Made by a program: the position numbers and the translations under genes
In this document: positions 13,679 through 59,410 of the stretch, piece by piece
Numbering within the stretch: the stretch's first letter is position 1
How the letters are laid out: each line of letters opens with the position of its first letter
Notes under the pieces: model-generated
Database searches by the model: none
Seen by the model: the letters and a program-made list of their open reading frames with translations, nothing else
Told to the model about the DNA's origin: nothing
Assembly: GCA_028717805.1 (NCBI GenBank)
Contig: JAQUNC010000007.1
Span: 1-64,000, forward strand
Direction: 5' to 3'
Source: Atribacterota bacterium
Lineage (GTDB): Bacteria; Atribacterota; Phoenicimicrobiia; Phoenicimicrobiales; Stramentimicrobiaceae
DNA: 64,000 bases

Positions 13679-13720
13679 CAAATTAATATATACCTTCCTA
13701 TCCAAAAATCATTAATTATT

Positions 13721-14032
13721 CAAGGGGAATCCTTCCCCTTGAGAACCCCTGAAATACATCTTTTACTTAAGGTAGATAATTAATCTATATTTTAATTTAT
13801 TTTATCCTGAGGTTCATATTATCAGGTGGTAATTGTCCTCAGTATATTCAAGGGGAAGGATTCCCCTTGAGAACCCCTTTTTCTCGTATATAGTATATTC
13901 AGTATATGGTAAATCGTATAACGTTGTAATGCGTGGTGCGTAATATACTATTATTATATAATAGTAAAATTATTTACATTTATTGTTTTAGGATTCTGAG
14001 GAATCATAAGCTTTGGTGTTAACTGTCCTCAG
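13721..14032 (-). repeat. Two tandem copies of a composite intergenic repeat
   Basis: Copy 1 (13721-13842) and copy 2 (13849-14032) have the same parts in the same order. Each begins with a perfect palindrome with AAGGGGAA arms (13722-13740; 13849-13869) followed by GAGAACCCCT. An AT-rich spacer follows. Each ends with CTGAGG-N24/25-CCTCAG (13807-13842; 13996-14032), whose inner bases are also conserved (TGT before CCTCAG). A third copy lies at 30181-30335. No coding potential is visible. The repeat fills most of the 13706-14099 gap. Confidence 0.7.
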
Positions 14033-14099
14033 TTTATTCAAACAATTATTTTGAGAGAAAGTTCAATGTTTATTTACCTTATAAAGAAAATATTTTTGT

Positions 14100-29306: not shown

Positions 29307-30191
29307 TTATTCTCTCAACATAATTCCAGCAGCAAAACGACCTGTACATCGATGTTCTTTTCTATTGGAAAAAAATAGATTAGAATGACAGGAAGTACAC
29401 AGATAGGCGATTTCGATATGCTCCTCCGGTATCCCACAACTTAACAATTGTATTTTGTTAGCCTGCCACAAATCGAAAAAAAACCTTTCACCATTAGAAA
29501 AAGAACGAATTAAATTTTGCTCTTTTGGAAAAGACTCCTTAACTTTATATAATACATCCTTTCCCACCTGATAGCAACAGGGACCAATAGAAGGACCAAT
29601 AGCACAGATAATATCCAGGGCTCTGCAGTGATAATGAGATTGCATTAAACGAATAGTTTTCTGAGTAATGAGGCCGACTGTTCCCTTCCATCCGGCATGA
29701 ACCAGAGCAATAACCTTTTTTCTATAGTCAAAAAGTATTACTGGCACGCAATCAGCAACAAAAATTAGAAGACAGATATTTCTATAAGCAGTAATCATAG
29801 CATCACTGATTTGCACTGGATTAGTTAAATCCTTGTTATTCTTTAATCCCTTTCTGTTGTTAATTAAAAATACGTTCGTTCCATGTTCCTGCTGAGTAAA
29901 AATAAAACTTTCAGTAGATATGCCGAGGGATTTAGCCAAGCGGTCACGGTTTTTGAGAACATGTTCCTCTCTATCTCCCACATGAGAAGCTAAATTAAAA
30001 GAATGAAATGGTTTTTCACTGTAACCACCATGTCGGGTAGTGATGAAATGCAGAACATCTTCATGTTGAGATAAACCGAGAAAGCGAGTAATTGGAATGC
30101 CATCTAAACCAACTTTAGTAAAAAATATATTTGATTTGATGTTATCTTTGGATTCAATCATAACATAATCTACGGGATAATCAAGAGGCAT
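29307..30191 (-). CDS. pgeF: Multicopper-oxidase-like purine nucleoside phosphorylase (YfiH/PgeF)
   Basis: This 294-residue laccase-domain protein is of the YfiH/PgeF family, cytoplasmic enzymes with purine nucleoside phosphorylase or adenosine deaminase activity, also linked to peptidoglycan editing. Zinc-site motifs are VADCVPV, VHAGWKGT, IGPSIGPCCYQVG and CTSCHSNLFFSNR. The first ATG (30191) is favoured because GGGGGAAGA stands just upstream. This purine-rich site is one arm of the dispersed repeat, which overlaps the first codons. A downstream ATG at 30158 has no ribosome site. Confidence 0.9.
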   Translation of the reverse strand: MPLDYPVDYVMIESKDNIKSNIFFTKVGLDGIPITRFLGLSQHEDVLHFITTRHGGYSEKPFHSFNLASHVGDREEHVLKNRDRLAKSLGISTESFIFTQQEHGTNVFLINNRKGLKNNKDLTNPVQISDAMITAYRNICLLIFVADCVPVILFDYRKKVIALVHAGWKGTVGLITQKTIRLMQSHYHCRALDIICAIGPSIGPCCYQVGKDVLYKVKESFPKEQNLIRSFSNGERFFFDLWQANKIQLLSCGIPEEHIEIAYLCTSCHSNLFFSNRKEHRCTGRFAAGIMLRE

Positions 30192-30335
30192 TCTTCCCCC
30201 TGAGAATCCCTGTATTATTATTGAGTATATGGTATTTAGTAAACCGTAGTAGTGTTCCTATATAAAGTAGTTATTGTAGTTATATATTTTATAGGATCCT
30301 GAGGGATTATAACTTTGGGCAGTAAATGTCCTCAG
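30181..30335 (-). repeat. Third copy of the composite intergenic repeat
   Basis: The head palindrome is degenerate here (30181-30211) and is followed by GAGAATCCCTG. A spacer shares GAGTATATGGTA-like sequence with the copy at 13849. The tail CTGAGG-N25-CCTCAG (30299-30335) has inner bases close to those of the other copies (GATTATAA...AAATGT). It overlaps the start of pgeF and lies in the gap after the DUF2461 gene. Confidence 0.65.
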
Positions 30336-30367
30336 AAAATTAAAAATTTTTAACTAAGTTACTTTAG

Positions 30368-31120: not shown

Positions 31121-31699
31121 TTAAGCAAAACCCTTTAATCCAATTTCTTCTGCAACTTCTTGCATACCTTTGATAGTATCATCAATTAATTGTGAAAGTT
31201 CTATACCAAGCATTTCAGCTCCTTTCAGAATAATATCGCGGTTAACTCCTGCTGCAAAACGTTTATCCTTCCATTTCTTTTTAACTGATTTAACCTCCAC
31301 ATCAATCACGCTTCTGGAAGGTCTCACTAAAGCAGTAGTCACTACTAATCCCGTTAATTCATCAATAGCATAAAGAGTCTTTTCTAATGTTGTTTCCGGT
31401 TTTACATCTGAACATATTCCCCAGCCATGGCTAATTACGGCACGGATATAATCCTCTGGCCAGCCTTTTTCTTCAAGTATTTCTTTGCTCTTCTGGCAAT
31501 GCTGCTCTGGAAATCTATAATAATCAAGATCATGAACTAAACCAATTATTCCCCATTTCTCTTCATCTTCACCATTTTTCCTGGCCATATAACGCATTAC
31601 CCCTTCCACCGCTAGAGCATGTTTTATAAGACCATCATCCTGATTGTACTCTTTTAATAATTGTAAGGCATCTCCTCTGGTGGGATTATATCTGTTCAT
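31121..31699 (-). CDS. HD domain metal-dependent hydrolase-like protein
   Basis: This 192-residue protein has the HD phosphohydrolase core: IKHALAVEGVMRYMA, GLVHDLDYYRFPEQHCQKS (metal-binding HD), ISHGW and IDELTGLVVTTALVRP. This subgroup is often annotated HDIG-domain protein. The substrate is unknown; nucleotides are typical for the superfamily. The SD GAAGGAGG is strong. A copy of the AGGGGA palindrome lies 22 bases upstream of the start. Confidence 0.85.
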   Translation of the reverse strand: MNRYNPTRGDALQLLKEYNQDDGLIKHALAVEGVMRYMARKNGEDEEKWGIIGLVHDLDYYRFPEQHCQKSKEILEEKGWPEDYIRAVISHGWGICSDVKPETTLEKTLYAIDELTGLVVTTALVRPSRSVIDVEVKSVKKKWKDKRFAAGVNRDIILKGAEMLGIELSQLIDDTIKGMQEVAEEIGLKGFA

Positions 31700-31720
31700 G
31701 ATAACCTCCTTCTCAAGATA

Positions 31721-31750
31721 TTCAAGGGGAATTCTTCACCTTGAAAACTT
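31721..31750 (-). repeat. Dispersed AGGGGA palindrome, degenerate copy
   Basis: TTCAAGGGGAA is paired with TTCACCTTGAA around a three-base centre, followed by AACTT where other copies have AACCCCT. It lies immediately upstream of the HD-domain gene start, in the same orientation as the other copies. Confidence 0.5.
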
Positions 31751-32112
31751 CTTAAGTTAAGCTAAAATTATATTTTATTCATCCCCACCTATCTTGTTTA
31801 TTAACCAAGATAGGATTTCTTGAACAAGTATTTTGCTGGCACGTTTTCAGGATATTCTTCCACTGATTTTTTTGGTTTTAACACTTTTATAATAAATCCT
31901 ATTTTGATCTTATCTTAAAATTTAACTTATAGTATATTGTTTCTTATTTACATAAAGATATTTCTAGGTATCAAATTTTTTTAAACTCCGACACTTCGAA
32001 ATGGGTCTTCAATTATTGCATCATTATAGCATTATATCAATAGAATGAAAAGCAAACTATTATTTAGTATATTTTCTTTAAAGTCTTACCGTCTTCCAGT
32101 CAATCAAAGTTC
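31751..32112. other. AT-rich gap between galK and the HD gene
   Basis: It contains a perfect 9-bp hairpin (CCTATCTTG at 31788-31796 with CAAGATAGG at 31806-31814). There is no T run on either strand beside it, so termination of galK transcripts is possible but weakly supported. I see no gene or other structure in the rest. Confidence 0.4.
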
Positions 32113-55922: not shown

Positions 55923-57885
55923 TTAATAATATGTTGCCACATTCGTTTAGATCATATCCACCAAGCTGGGCAACCTGCTCCTTAAAATGATTTGTTCTTA
56001 TTATTTCTAATATCTTTTTTATTCTCTGGCTATGAAAATATCTTTCGGGAATAATTAAATCATAGCGCTCTTTAATGAGAGGGACAAAGTCCAGATTAAA
56101 TGCTTTAGCAGCTGAAAAAATTCCTAAACCTACATCTACTCTTTGGTTGACAACTGCAGAAGCTACCATTAGATGGGTAAATTCCTCCTGATTATATCCT
56201 TGAATTGAGGTAGGATTAATATTGTTCTTTTTAAGCAAATAATCTAAAAGAATCCGTGTTCCCGACCCTTTTTGTCGATTAATATAACGAATATCATCTC
56301 TTGCTAAATCTTTTATTGCCAAAATGTTTTTAGGATTGCCTTTTGCTACCATAAAGCCCTGCTGTCTAAAAGCCATATTTACTACCGCGACACTTTGACT
56401 TATTAAAACACGCTTGATATAGGGAAAATTATATTCTCCACTTTCCACATCCAAAAGATGAGAAGTTGCCAGGTGGGCAATCTCCTGTTTCAATGCTAAC
56501 AGTCCTCCCATACTTCCGGTATGAAAAGATGCTAGACGAAATTCTGGCGAATTGGTTTGCAACTCATTCTTTAAAATATCCAATATCAGATCATGACTGC
56601 CGATAATAATTATGGTGTTATCTATATTAAAATCATGCTCTAATAATAATTCTGCTTCAGTTTCTTCTTTAAAGCTCAAACCTTCGCTAAGTGACGGTAT
56701 TCTAATAAGTGCATCAGCTTCTACCAATGACGAAATAATCCCTGCTCCGCGATTTAAGGGATATGCCATTATTTTATCATCAATCTTAGCTAATTTTACC
56801 CGAAGAAATTCTTCATTTCCTAACTTGGAAACTATCTTTTTAGCCATTAATACCTTGGTCTTAATCCTTCCTGGAGGGCTCAGCCTTAAACTTTTATAAA
56901 CCAAAGGCAAAACAAATTCCCATGCTGCTAATAAGTAAGAAACCGGGTATCCCGGTAAACCAATAACGGGAATACCTTGAACCATCCCGGCTAATGTAGG
57001 CTTTCCTGGCATCATAGCTATACCATGAAATAATATTTCTCCCATATCTGCCAGTACTTTTGCAGTAAAATCTTTACTACCAGCAGAGGTTCCTGCAATT
57101 ACTGTAACAATGTCATTATCTTTTACTGCTGACTGTAATATCTTTTTTAAATCCTCTTTAATATCACGAATAATTGGATATATAACAGGCTCTCCACCCC
57201 ATTGAATCACCGAATTTGATAACATTCTAGAATTAAAATCAAGGATATCCCCTGCTTTTATCTCTCCTTCATCAAGTCCGACCAATTCTTCTCCAGTGGG
57301 AATAATAGCAACTTGCGGCTTCTTCCAAACCTCTATTTCTGATATCCCTCCTGCCATTAAAGCACCTATATCCACCGGTCTAATTTTATGATTCGCAGTT
57401 AATATGAGTTGGTGAGTGACAATATCTTCTCCTATATTACGAACATTCATACCCGGGGAAACAGATTGAAATATTTTCAGTTGCGCGAAATTCTCTTTCT
57501 GATTCGGCACATTACTATCCGTTCTAACAGGAACTACATCTTCAATTTTTATCACTGAATCAAATTCTTCTGGTAAAGGATCTCCGGTATTTACATATAA
57601 AAAATCTTTCTTATGACTTAGAATAATTGGATTTTTTTCTGAGGCATCCTCTGCACTGCGGGAATGTACGGCTATTCCATCCATGGCTGATGCAGTATAA
57701 TGCAAAGAAGATCTTCTAGCAAAAACAGCTTTAGAAGTAATTCGCTCAAGCGATTTTTCTACCGAAAGCAACTCATGTTTGGAGTTTAAAGTAATTAGAC
57801 CTTCTGTAATGGCTTTCTCGATTTTTTGCTTTGCTTCCTCTAAGGATATTTTCTTCAAATAAATATTTCGTTCCATCATAAACAT
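55906..57885 (-). CDS. moeA: MoeA fused to a C-terminal PBP-like domain
   Basis: This 659-residue protein has MoeA at residues 1-405 (TASAMDGIAVHS, NTGDPLPEEFDSVIKIEDVV, IIPTGEEL, GTSAGSKDF, GLPGYPVS), which inserts molybdenum or tungsten into the cofactor. A PBP-like domain follows at about 425-659 (IIIIGSHDLILDILKNEL, GSMGGLLALKQ, RQKGSGTRILLDYLL, GYNQEEFTHLMVAS), resembling the ModE/LysR-associated anion-binding domain of COG1910. It could deliver or sense the oxyanion. A dispersed palindrome abuts the start codon; nearby in-frame ATG codons leave the exact start open. Confidence 0.92.
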   Translation of the reverse strand: MFMMERNIYLKKISLEEAKQKIEKAITEGLITLNSKHELLSVEKSLERITSKAVFARRSSLHYTASAMDGIAVHSRSAEDASEKNPIILSHKKDFLYVNTGDPLPEEFDSVIKIEDVVPVRTDSNVPNQKENFAQLKIFQSVSPGMNVRNIGEDIVTHQLILTANHKIRPVDIGALMAGGISEIEVWKKPQVAIIPTGEELVGLDEGEIKAGDILDFNSRMLSNSVIQWGGEPVIYPIIRDIKEDLKKILQSAVKDNDIVTVIAGTSAGSKDFTAKVLADMGEILFHGIAMMPGKPTLAGMVQGIPVIGLPGYPVSYLLAAWEFVLPLVYKSLRLSPPGRIKTKVLMAKKIVSKLGNEEFLRVKLAKIDDKIMAYPLNRGAGIISSLVEADALIRIPSLSEGLSFKEETEAELLLEHDFNIDNTIIIIGSHDLILDILKNELQTNSPEFRLASFHTGSMGGLLALKQEIAHLATSHLLDVESGEYNFPYIKRVLISQSVAVVNMAFRQQGFMVAKGNPKNILAIKDLARDDIRYINRQKGSGTRILLDYLLKKNNINPTSIQGYNQEEFTHLMVASAVVNQRVDVGLGIFSAAKAFNLDFVPLIKERYDLIIPERYFHSQRIKKILEIIRTNHFKEQVAQLGGYDLNECGNILLNGKIN

Positions 57886-57889
57886 ATCG

Positions 57890-58057
57890 TAAGGGGATTC
57901 TCCCCTTAAACCCCTTATATTGTAAAAATATTCCTTCCTTTTTCATTCTCTATTTTTACTACTCAAAAACTATAATTTCAAATATACCTTGTTTTATAAT
58001 ATTGTTTAGTATATTTGTCCAGCAAGGTCGTAAGGGGATTCTCCCCTTAAACCCCTT
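57890..58057 (-). repeat. Two copies of the dispersed AGGGGA palindrome
   Basis: TAAGGGGA-TTC-TCCCCTTA followed by AACCCCTT occurs at 57890-57916 and again, identical, at 58031-58057. The first copy is five bases upstream of the moeA-PBP start codon. Between them is AT-rich sequence. Confidence 0.75.
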
Positions 58058-58112: not shown

Positions 58113-59384
58113 CTAAAATATAGTAACGCTAACCTTTTCTCCCTGATATAAACCTTCTTGATTGAGTTTGATAGTAATATATCCATCAGCTTTGGCTAAA
58201 GAAGAAATAATTCCAGACTTACCCAAAATCGGTTCAGCCCACAGTTGGTCATTCTTACTTTTCAGTACTACCCTTACATATTCTTCTCTGCCAGCATCTG
58301 AAAATACATTACTTTCTAGTAAGGCATCAACCATTTTTCTTTGTCCAATATGAAGTATTTCACCTTTTAAGTCAAACATTATTCTTTTTACCACATTATC
58401 AAAAACCATCATGGCTGAAACAGGGTGTCCGGGCAAACCAACAAATAATTTTTGTTTATTTAAAGAAAGAATAGTAGGTTTACCAGGTTTTAAGGCTAAG
58501 CCGTGAACCAGGACTCCAGGTGAACCAAGATTATTCAATACATCTAAGGTATAATCTCTAATACCCACTGAACTGCCTCCAGAAATTAAGACTAAATCAA
58601 TTTCCGGGGTATCTAAACATTTCTGAAGTACATTTTTCAACATCTTTTCATTATCTTTGATAATGCCAGCATAATAGGGAATACAACCTACTTGCTTTAC
58701 TGCTGCACCAAGTGCAAAAGAGTTAATATCACGAACCTGGCCTGGTTCAGGTTTTTGATTTATAGAAATAATTTCATCACCGGTAGAAATAATTGCCACT
58801 ACTAGTTTTTTGAAAACTTTGATTCTTTCTAAACCCAGGGCTGCTAACAAGCCAATATCCTGTGGTCTCAAGTAACAACCTTTTTCTAAAACTCTTTCAT
58901 TTTTCTTGATATCTTCATCTTTACGCAATACATTTTCCCAGGGAGCTACTGAACGACTTATTTCAATCACTGTAGGGCTTAAGTCTTCTGTATACTCCAA
59001 CATAACTACTGAATCAGCTCCTTCTGGTAACATCCCTCCAGTTGAAATTCTTGCCACTTGTCCCTTTTGCAATACATAAGAAGGTTTTTCTGACATCTTT
59101 ATCTCACCAAGCAAATCAAGATAAGCTGGCAAACTATCACTTGCTCCATAAGTATCACTAGCCTTAACTGCGTATCCATCCATAGTTGATCTATTAAATC
59201 CAGGTATATTCTCAGTTGAAATAACATTTTCTGCTAACACTCTTCCATAAGCATGGATAAGGTCTATTTGCTCATCACGATTCTTAAAAAATGTAGCAAA
59301 ATCAAAAGATTGACGAAAAATTTTTAGGCTTTCTTCAATTGTTGTGACTTTAAATAGTGGTTGAACCATAAAAACATACATCAT
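58113..59384 (-). CDS. moeA: Molybdopterin molybdenumtransferase MoeA
   Basis: This 423-residue, single-unit MoeA shows FNRSTMDGYAVKASD, ARISTGGMLPEGADSVVMLEYTE, LRPQDIGLLAALG, ISTGDEI, SGGSSVGIRDY and GLPGHPVSAMM. It is the first gene of the molybdopterin operon and the second MoeA in it. Many tungsten users carry two MoeA proteins, thought to split Mo and W insertion. The start ATG at 59384 touches a copy of the AGGGGA palindrome; ATG codons at residues 2 and 6 are also possible starts. Confidence 0.93.
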   Translation of the reverse strand: MMYVFMVQPLFKVTTIEESLKIFRQSFDFATFFKNRDEQIDLIHAYGRVLAENVISTENIPGFNRSTMDGYAVKASDTYGASDSLPAYLDLLGEIKMSEKPSYVLQKGQVARISTGGMLPEGADSVVMLEYTEDLSPTVIEISRSVAPWENVLRKDEDIKKNERVLEKGCYLRPQDIGLLAALGLERIKVFKKLVVAIISTGDEIISINQKPEPGQVRDINSFALGAAVKQVGCIPYYAGIIKDNEKMLKNVLQKCLDTPEIDLVLISGGSSVGIRDYTLDVLNNLGSPGVLVHGLALKPGKPTILSLNKQKLFVGLPGHPVSAMMVFDNVVKRIMFDLKGEILHIGQRKMVDALLESNVFSDAGREEYVRVVLKSKNDQLWAEPILGKSGIISSLAKADGYITIKLNQEGLYQGEKVSVTIF

Positions 59385-59410
59385 CAGGGGATGCTTCCCC
59401 TGAAACCCCT
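59384..59410 (-). repeat. Dispersed AGGGGA palindrome at the moeA start
   Basis: TCAGGGGA-TGCT-TCCCCTGA followed by AACCCCT. The 3' arm (minus strand) runs directly into the moeA ATG. Confidence 0.7.

Follow-up and report, generated by a model that had tools for sequence, protein, structure and literature searches.

A strongly oriented family of composite intergenic repeats with an intrastrand-triplex motif in Atribacterota

Introduction

The question raised by the present locus is what kind of element stands twice in tandem, and a third time farther on, between the genes of a 64,000-nucleotide stretch of contig JAQUNC010000007.1 from an Atribacterota bacterium—the whole stretch analysed here being referred to as the window—and how such an element multiplies. 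The original prediction described a composite repeat with two palindromic ends and a variable middle, and offered a MITE-like element, a structured RNA or a protein-binding array as its possible nature. No paper on repeats in Atribacterota was found in the collection searched. Repeats with an intrastrand-triplex motif have been reported so far mainly from Proteobacteria and Cyanobacteria; the instability surrounding them is unexplained, and the best-studied motif is without strand bias.

Results

Repeat copies in the window

The three copies are present as described, all on the + strand: units 1 and 2 as a tandem pair (13720-13842 and 13848-14032) and copy 3, with the same architecture, at 30181-30335. 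Each of them consists of a 10-bp hairpin TCAAGGGGAA-nnn-TTCCCCTTGA, followed by GAGAA(C/T)CCCT, an AT-rich body and CTGAGG-N24/N25-CCTCAG. On the + strand, the left module reads TTCAAGGGGAAnnnTTCCCCTTGAGAA(C/T)CCCT, the left end of the units being CAAGATATTCAAGGGG, and the right module is CTGAGG-N24/25-CCTCAG.

The left module of unit 1 (13720-13750, − strand), i.e. the 10-bp hairpin plus a third tract, contains a class I intrastrand-triplex motif with the strict site at 13722-13750; it is followed by an AT-rich body (13751-13805), of which contig C23 of this genome carries near-identical copies, and by the right hairpin (13806-13847, − strand), CCTGAGG-N24-CCTCAG with the TATA joint to unit 2. 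In unit 2, a perfect 8-triad class I motif, AAGGGGTT-CTC-AAGGGGAA-TCC-TTCCCCTT, forms the left module (13848-13879, − strand), and the AT-rich body (13880-13994) leads to the right hairpin CTGAGG-N25-CCTCAG, then TTTATTC (13995-14038, − strand); unit 2 is present in the congener G004, too. Copy 3 has a degenerate left module lying outside the strict triplex definition (30181-30211, − strand) and the right hairpin CTGAGG-N25-CCTCAG (30298-30336, − strand). Folded as single-stranded DNA, unit 1 (z −4.0) and its right hairpin (z −3.7) surpassed their shuffles, whereas the stretch tested for copy 3 folded no better than shuffles (z 0.19); copy 3 is decayed. A solitary degenerate left module without a right one is found at 31715-31753 (− strand), where it immediately precedes the ribosome-binding site belonging to the ORF 31121-31699 (−).

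The window also contains sister modules of the pattern T(A/C)AGGGG..CCCCT(T/G)AAACCCCT, represented by the types TAAGGGG/CCCCTTAAACCCC and TCAGGGG/CCCCTGAAACCCC, all three being class I triplex motifs on the − strand. The module TCGTAAGGGGATTCTCCCCTTAAACCCCTT (57887-57916) is separated by 2 bp from an ORF starting at 57885 (−), an identical one follows 141 bp further on (58028-58057), and TCATCAGGGGATGCTTCCCCTGAAACCCCT (59381-59410) is located at the start of the ORF 58113-59384 (−), downstream of a Moco riboswitch. It should be noted that the last module sits between that riboswitch (Rfam RF01055; 59474-59591, − strand) and the coding sequence, and overlaps the predicted ORF start. A PyrR binding site (RF00515; 36499-36640, − strand) scored above the gathering score; it and the Moco riboswitch are the sole Rfam matches in the window, both lying elsewhere than the repeats, which have none.

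The left module as a triplex motif

Read on the opposite strand, the left module is AGGGGTT-nTC-AAGGGGAA-nnn-TTCCCCTT, the 33-nt strand being AAAGGGGTTCTCAAGGGGAATCCTTCCCCTTGA. According to the published rule, an intrastrand triplex is built from three stems, each 6-15 nt long and together forming valid triads, joined by loops of 1-6 nt (PMC4666352). Our own implementation of this definition, applied to the whole window and to 20 dinucleotide shuffles, yielded five strict sites in the window—one each in units 1 and 2, plus the three sister modules, every one of class I and on the − strand—against a single match in the 20 shuffles; by sequence, the left module is thus an intrastrand-triplex motif of class I.

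Among 205 oriented copies, 138 carry all seven triads, and conservation is mostly 1.3-1.9 bits over the stems and the third tract but 0.46 bits in the middles of the two loops. Double compensatory stem changes amount to 8, compared with 1.6 in shuffles (maximum 6 of 300); such changes exist but are few in the left stem, and the signal is modest because the stem hardly varies and the copies are related. In the sister type, one A-T pair has been lost on both sides of the stem. Since the excess of triad compatibility over shuffles is small (1316 vs 1304) and no covariation of G-runs between third-tract length and stem length was seen, the triplex itself is not proven; judged from its sequence, the motif fits a triplex and may form one. 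Footprinting in E. coli detected no stable triplex in cells (PMC4666352).

Copy number and taxonomic distribution

At up to three mismatches, the left module gave three matches in the window vs 0.54 expected. With up to two mismatches, the left module (TTCAAGGGGAAnnnTTCCCCTTGAnAACCCCT) has 31 sites in the 2.27-Mb genome of origin, compared with one for the reversed control. For the survey of 60 relatives a longer left-module pattern was used, by which the genome of origin has 18 copies: two genomes of the same family contain 194 and 159, several of the same order 4-9, and all 37 genomes from outside the order none. Within one family, the copy number ranges from 0 to 194.

A scan of 84,980 species genomes revealed 73 stretches, nearly all of them in Candidatus Atribacteria MAGs, the exceptions being three gut-derived contigs, from Clostridia and a Deltaproteobacterium. 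Clostridia gut contigs (L051, about 410-600; L103, about 5282) carry similarly built G4 triplex-like repeats, with AAGGGGTCCAAGGGGAACATTTCCCCTT alternating with AGGGGGTACAAGGGGGCAGAGTCCCCTT. Viral contigs contained no exact match to the module, and a virus origin of the units was rejected on this ground.

The right module and unit structure

A hairpin abutting the module on its upstream side was found for 77% of the array-internal modules, the figures for first modules and for shuffles being 3.8% and 3.1%; its right arm meets the next module at GATA. The arms have many unrelated sequences, among them TATCTTGTTT/AAACAAGATA, TATCGAAATTGC/GCAATTACGATA, ATCCTGAGGA/TCCTCAGGAT and long ones around GTATCGGAATTT, and the hairpins end in GATA(T/A)TC, a motif standing on both sides of the units. 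As a general part of the element, the right module therefore survives as a structure but not as a sequence, the literal CTGAGG...CCTCAG with its inner bases being rare (five strict sites in 25 genomes): it is a slot in which complementarity is kept and sequence is interchangeable, CTGAGG/CCTCAG representing one rare type. Within one repeat, one hairpin is thus preserved by sequence and the other by shape alone.

Units are mainly 70-85 and 120-150 bp long and follow each other head to tail in arrays. The notion of two kept ends around a free middle applies beyond the window, the composite element recurring in a fixed orientation throughout the genome and in those of relatives. A unit is made up of a constant left module (third strand AGGGGTT and hairpin AAGGGGAA/TTCCCCTT on the gene-sense strand), a short AT-rich body and an interchangeable right hairpin. 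A palindrome GTATCGGAATTT-n5-AAATTCCGATAC, the outer arms of which vary, follows the last modules in many places (e.g. L095, L057 and L086) and may represent a separate repeat family.

Orientation

Compared with both flanking genes in 93 regions, the module points with them in 71 and against them in five, the remaining regions being divergent (13) or convergent (4); GC skew on the strand with the G-rich motif is positive in 80 regions and negative in nine. In the window, the + strand has a skew of −0.15 and all modules bear the motif on the − strand. Of the other genes in the module loci, however, 88% share one direction, and gene direction and replication strand are therefore inseparable; gene orientation was for this reason rejected as the established cause of the bias, the divergent and convergent regions (11:3) pointing weakly to the replication strand.

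Gain and loss of units

Close relatives differ by the gain and loss of entire units. At the 13.7-kb locus, the two units of the window face one decayed unit in the congener G004 and none in other relatives, the extra one being unit 1 (128 bp), which is 96-98% identical to the units on contig C23. Copy 3 is missing from the matching gap in three congeners, the congener flanks of copies 2 and 3 being too diverged for exact base-level empty sites.

The genomes G008 and G009, about 95% identical over orthologous stretches, allow a finer view. Indels of at least 30 bp occur between them in 11/11 module-bearing intergenic regions vs 1/12 without modules, the control regions being few and shorter; with the comparison restricted to regions of at least 100 bp, the proportions are 11/11 vs 1/4 (p 0.009). 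Many of these indels correspond to one unit (74-151 bp), and the breakpoints on both sides then fall within modules. Between the loci L058 and L062, a 127-bp insertion stands at a bare TAAGATAATC, the empty junction being without a module, and units can therefore reach new places. The insertion is flanked by a 9-bp near repeat, CAAGATATT/TAAGATAAT, which is inexact, so that the search for target duplications returned, for one insertion, a resemblance but no exact duplication.

Two further loci deserve mention. Contig C23 (L007, G000:C23) contains a partly masked tandem array of the 128-bp unit beside a sequence resembling, by eye, a cobalamin riboswitch; at this locus, the riboswitch-like part is retained in congeners, which lack the array. 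One and the same start-codon position is occupied by triplex-like modules of different sequence types in the window (57887-57916), in G004:C33 and in G001:C44, which suggests either conversion between types or selection for the position.

Discussion

A proposed mode of rearrangement of the triplex-motif units

The reading that we find somewhat more convincing than not is that of mosaic, BIME-like arrays whose triplex-motif units are rearranged either through stalled forks and template switching or through unequal recombination. The strand with the G-rich motif would have leading-strand sense and serve as the lagging-strand template; when single-stranded, it could fold into stable hairpins or a triplex, at which the polymerase would stall. 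Stalling, in turn, might lead to slippage, to template switching at the microhomology GATA(T/A)TC, or to unequal recombination or conversion between modules, with whole units being added, removed or transplanted, head-to-tail arrays as the outcome and any effect on adjacent genes as a by-product. In E. coli, triplex-motif loci are rearranged far more than controls (PMC4666352). The anatomy of the units, their copy numbers, the orientation bias and the gain and loss of units are observed, and triplex formation, fork stalling and the copying route are inferred; unequal recombination in its pure form is opposed by the 127-bp insertion at a module-free empty junction. A dedicated enzyme for the spread of units was not found. 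With the strand bias, the unit structure and relatives about 95% identical that differ unit by unit, the comparison of breakpoints can probe motif-driven rearrangement.

Alternative explanations

The main rival, rather unlikely in our judgement, is a non-autonomous single-strand transposon, for which a Y1 transposase of the IS200/IS605 or RAYT type, acting in trans, would read the end hairpins on the lagging-strand template and insert the unit next to GATA(T/A)TC. It would account for the two subterminal hairpins per unit, the orientation fixed relative to the replication strand, the GATA(T/A)TC on both sides of the units and the clean 127-bp insertion without exact target duplication, and Y1 transposases are present in 22 of the 25 genomes. 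Yet no Y1 gene was found in G008, which has 194 copies (the genome being 87% complete), and the sequence retrieved on either side of the examined Y1 loci contains no module. Y1 enzymes recognise specific hairpins, and the right hairpins of the units are unrelated in sequence. Clustering of the ORFs at the loci around modules, seeking a transposase or an autonomous partner, returned housekeeping genes only and no multi-copy transposase-like ORF. Of the proposed MITE-like character there thus remains that units appear and disappear as units, while terminal inverted repeats (the left end CAAGATATTCAAGGGG and the right hairpins being unrelated), an exact target duplication and a linked transposase were not found.

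As to the structured RNA of the original prediction, which the modules may be, compensatory changes occur, though few of them in the left stem, and gene-proximal modules are often placed immediately 5′ of ribosome-binding sites. An effect of the modules on the downstream gene is possible. The corresponding rival, which we consider improbable, is a cis-element of the 5′ untranslated region: a hairpin upstream of the ribosome-binding site that would tune mRNA stability or translation, with selection keeping the gene-sense orientation. Among the 93 cases in which a start was recognisable, 29 have the gene-nearest module at 20-39 nt from the start codon, immediately 5′ of the ribosome-binding site; the C23 array has a conserved promoter-like stretch on one side and, on the other, the ribosome-binding site of an adenosyltransferase-like ORF; two congeners retain a single module, of a different sequence type, at the position of the 57.9-kb site; and the eight double compensatory cells exceed the 1.6 obtained by shuffling. 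On the other hand, many relatives carry no module at the corresponding sites (the C23 array is missing in four congeners), the genes flanking the modules look functionally unrelated, a recognisable ribosome-binding start is missing within 600 bases of 53 out of 146 gene-proximal modules, copy 3 is decayed, and the replication strand also explains the orientation bias.

It is very improbable that the units are minimal ORF-less cassettes of an attC-like, non-integron single-strand system, joined by a recombinase that would read the folded right hairpin by shape and not by sequence on the lagging-strand template, its constant partner site being the G-rich triplex hairpin. The protein-binding array of the original prediction is the least supported and scarcely credible, since a nucleoid or regulatory protein reading three G4/C4 boxes would fit the main type, with its boxes exactly 11 bp apart, but the boxes of the sister type are about 10 and 9 bp apart—helical phase is therefore not kept—with varying loop lengths, and there is no candidate protein.

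Comparison with known repeat systems

Based on the above results, the family is a strongly oriented new form within a known class of bacterial repeats. It has points of contact with the potential intrastrand triplex motifs, comprising PIT/TM_ECO and the G/C-rich motifs of ITxF (Holder et al. 2015, PMC4666352), which likewise consist of a hairpin and a third G tract with short loops, are intergenic and present in many copies, differ greatly in copy number between near relatives and occur at strongly rearranged loci. TM_ECO, however, is of class II (C-G-G order), has 9-nt stems and no strand bias, and stands singly or in inverted pairs (PMC4666352), whereas the Atribacterota family, from a different phylum, is of class I, with stems of 7-8 nt, head-to-tail arrays, a second hairpin per unit and a strong orientation bias. 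Identity with TM_ECO, the consensus of which is CCCTCNCCC-N3-6-GGGNGAGGG-N3-GGGNGAGGG, was rejected, as the stem sequence and order differ.

With BIMEs, REP elements and REPINs the family shares intergenic mosaic arrays of palindromic units and expansion at the level of the unit. It does not belong to the BIMEs, in which REP units alternate while the Atribacterota units run head to tail, nor to the REP/RAYT system, there being no module around the Y1 loci examined and no Y1 found in G008. The pneumococcal BOX (boxA-boxB-boxC; PMC3049150) resembles it as a modular composite repeat with a variable middle and a variable number of units, but shows an excess between convergent genes and a leading-strand share of no more than about 61% (PMC3049150), compared with 4/93 convergent regions and 80:9 by GC skew here.

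Miniature elements derived from IS200/IS605 similarly have hairpins near both ends, lagging-strand orientation and no clear target duplication; the present family differs by a right hairpin unconserved in sequence and by a copy-richest genome (G008) in which no Y1 gene was found. Integron cassette arrays, finally, are also composed of head-to-tail units, each closed by a palindrome (attC) conserved in structure and not in sequence. Membership among the integrons was rejected, no integron integrase having scored above the curated cut-off in the 25 genomes, and, unlike integron cassettes, the Atribacterota units are without an ORF and spread over the whole genome.
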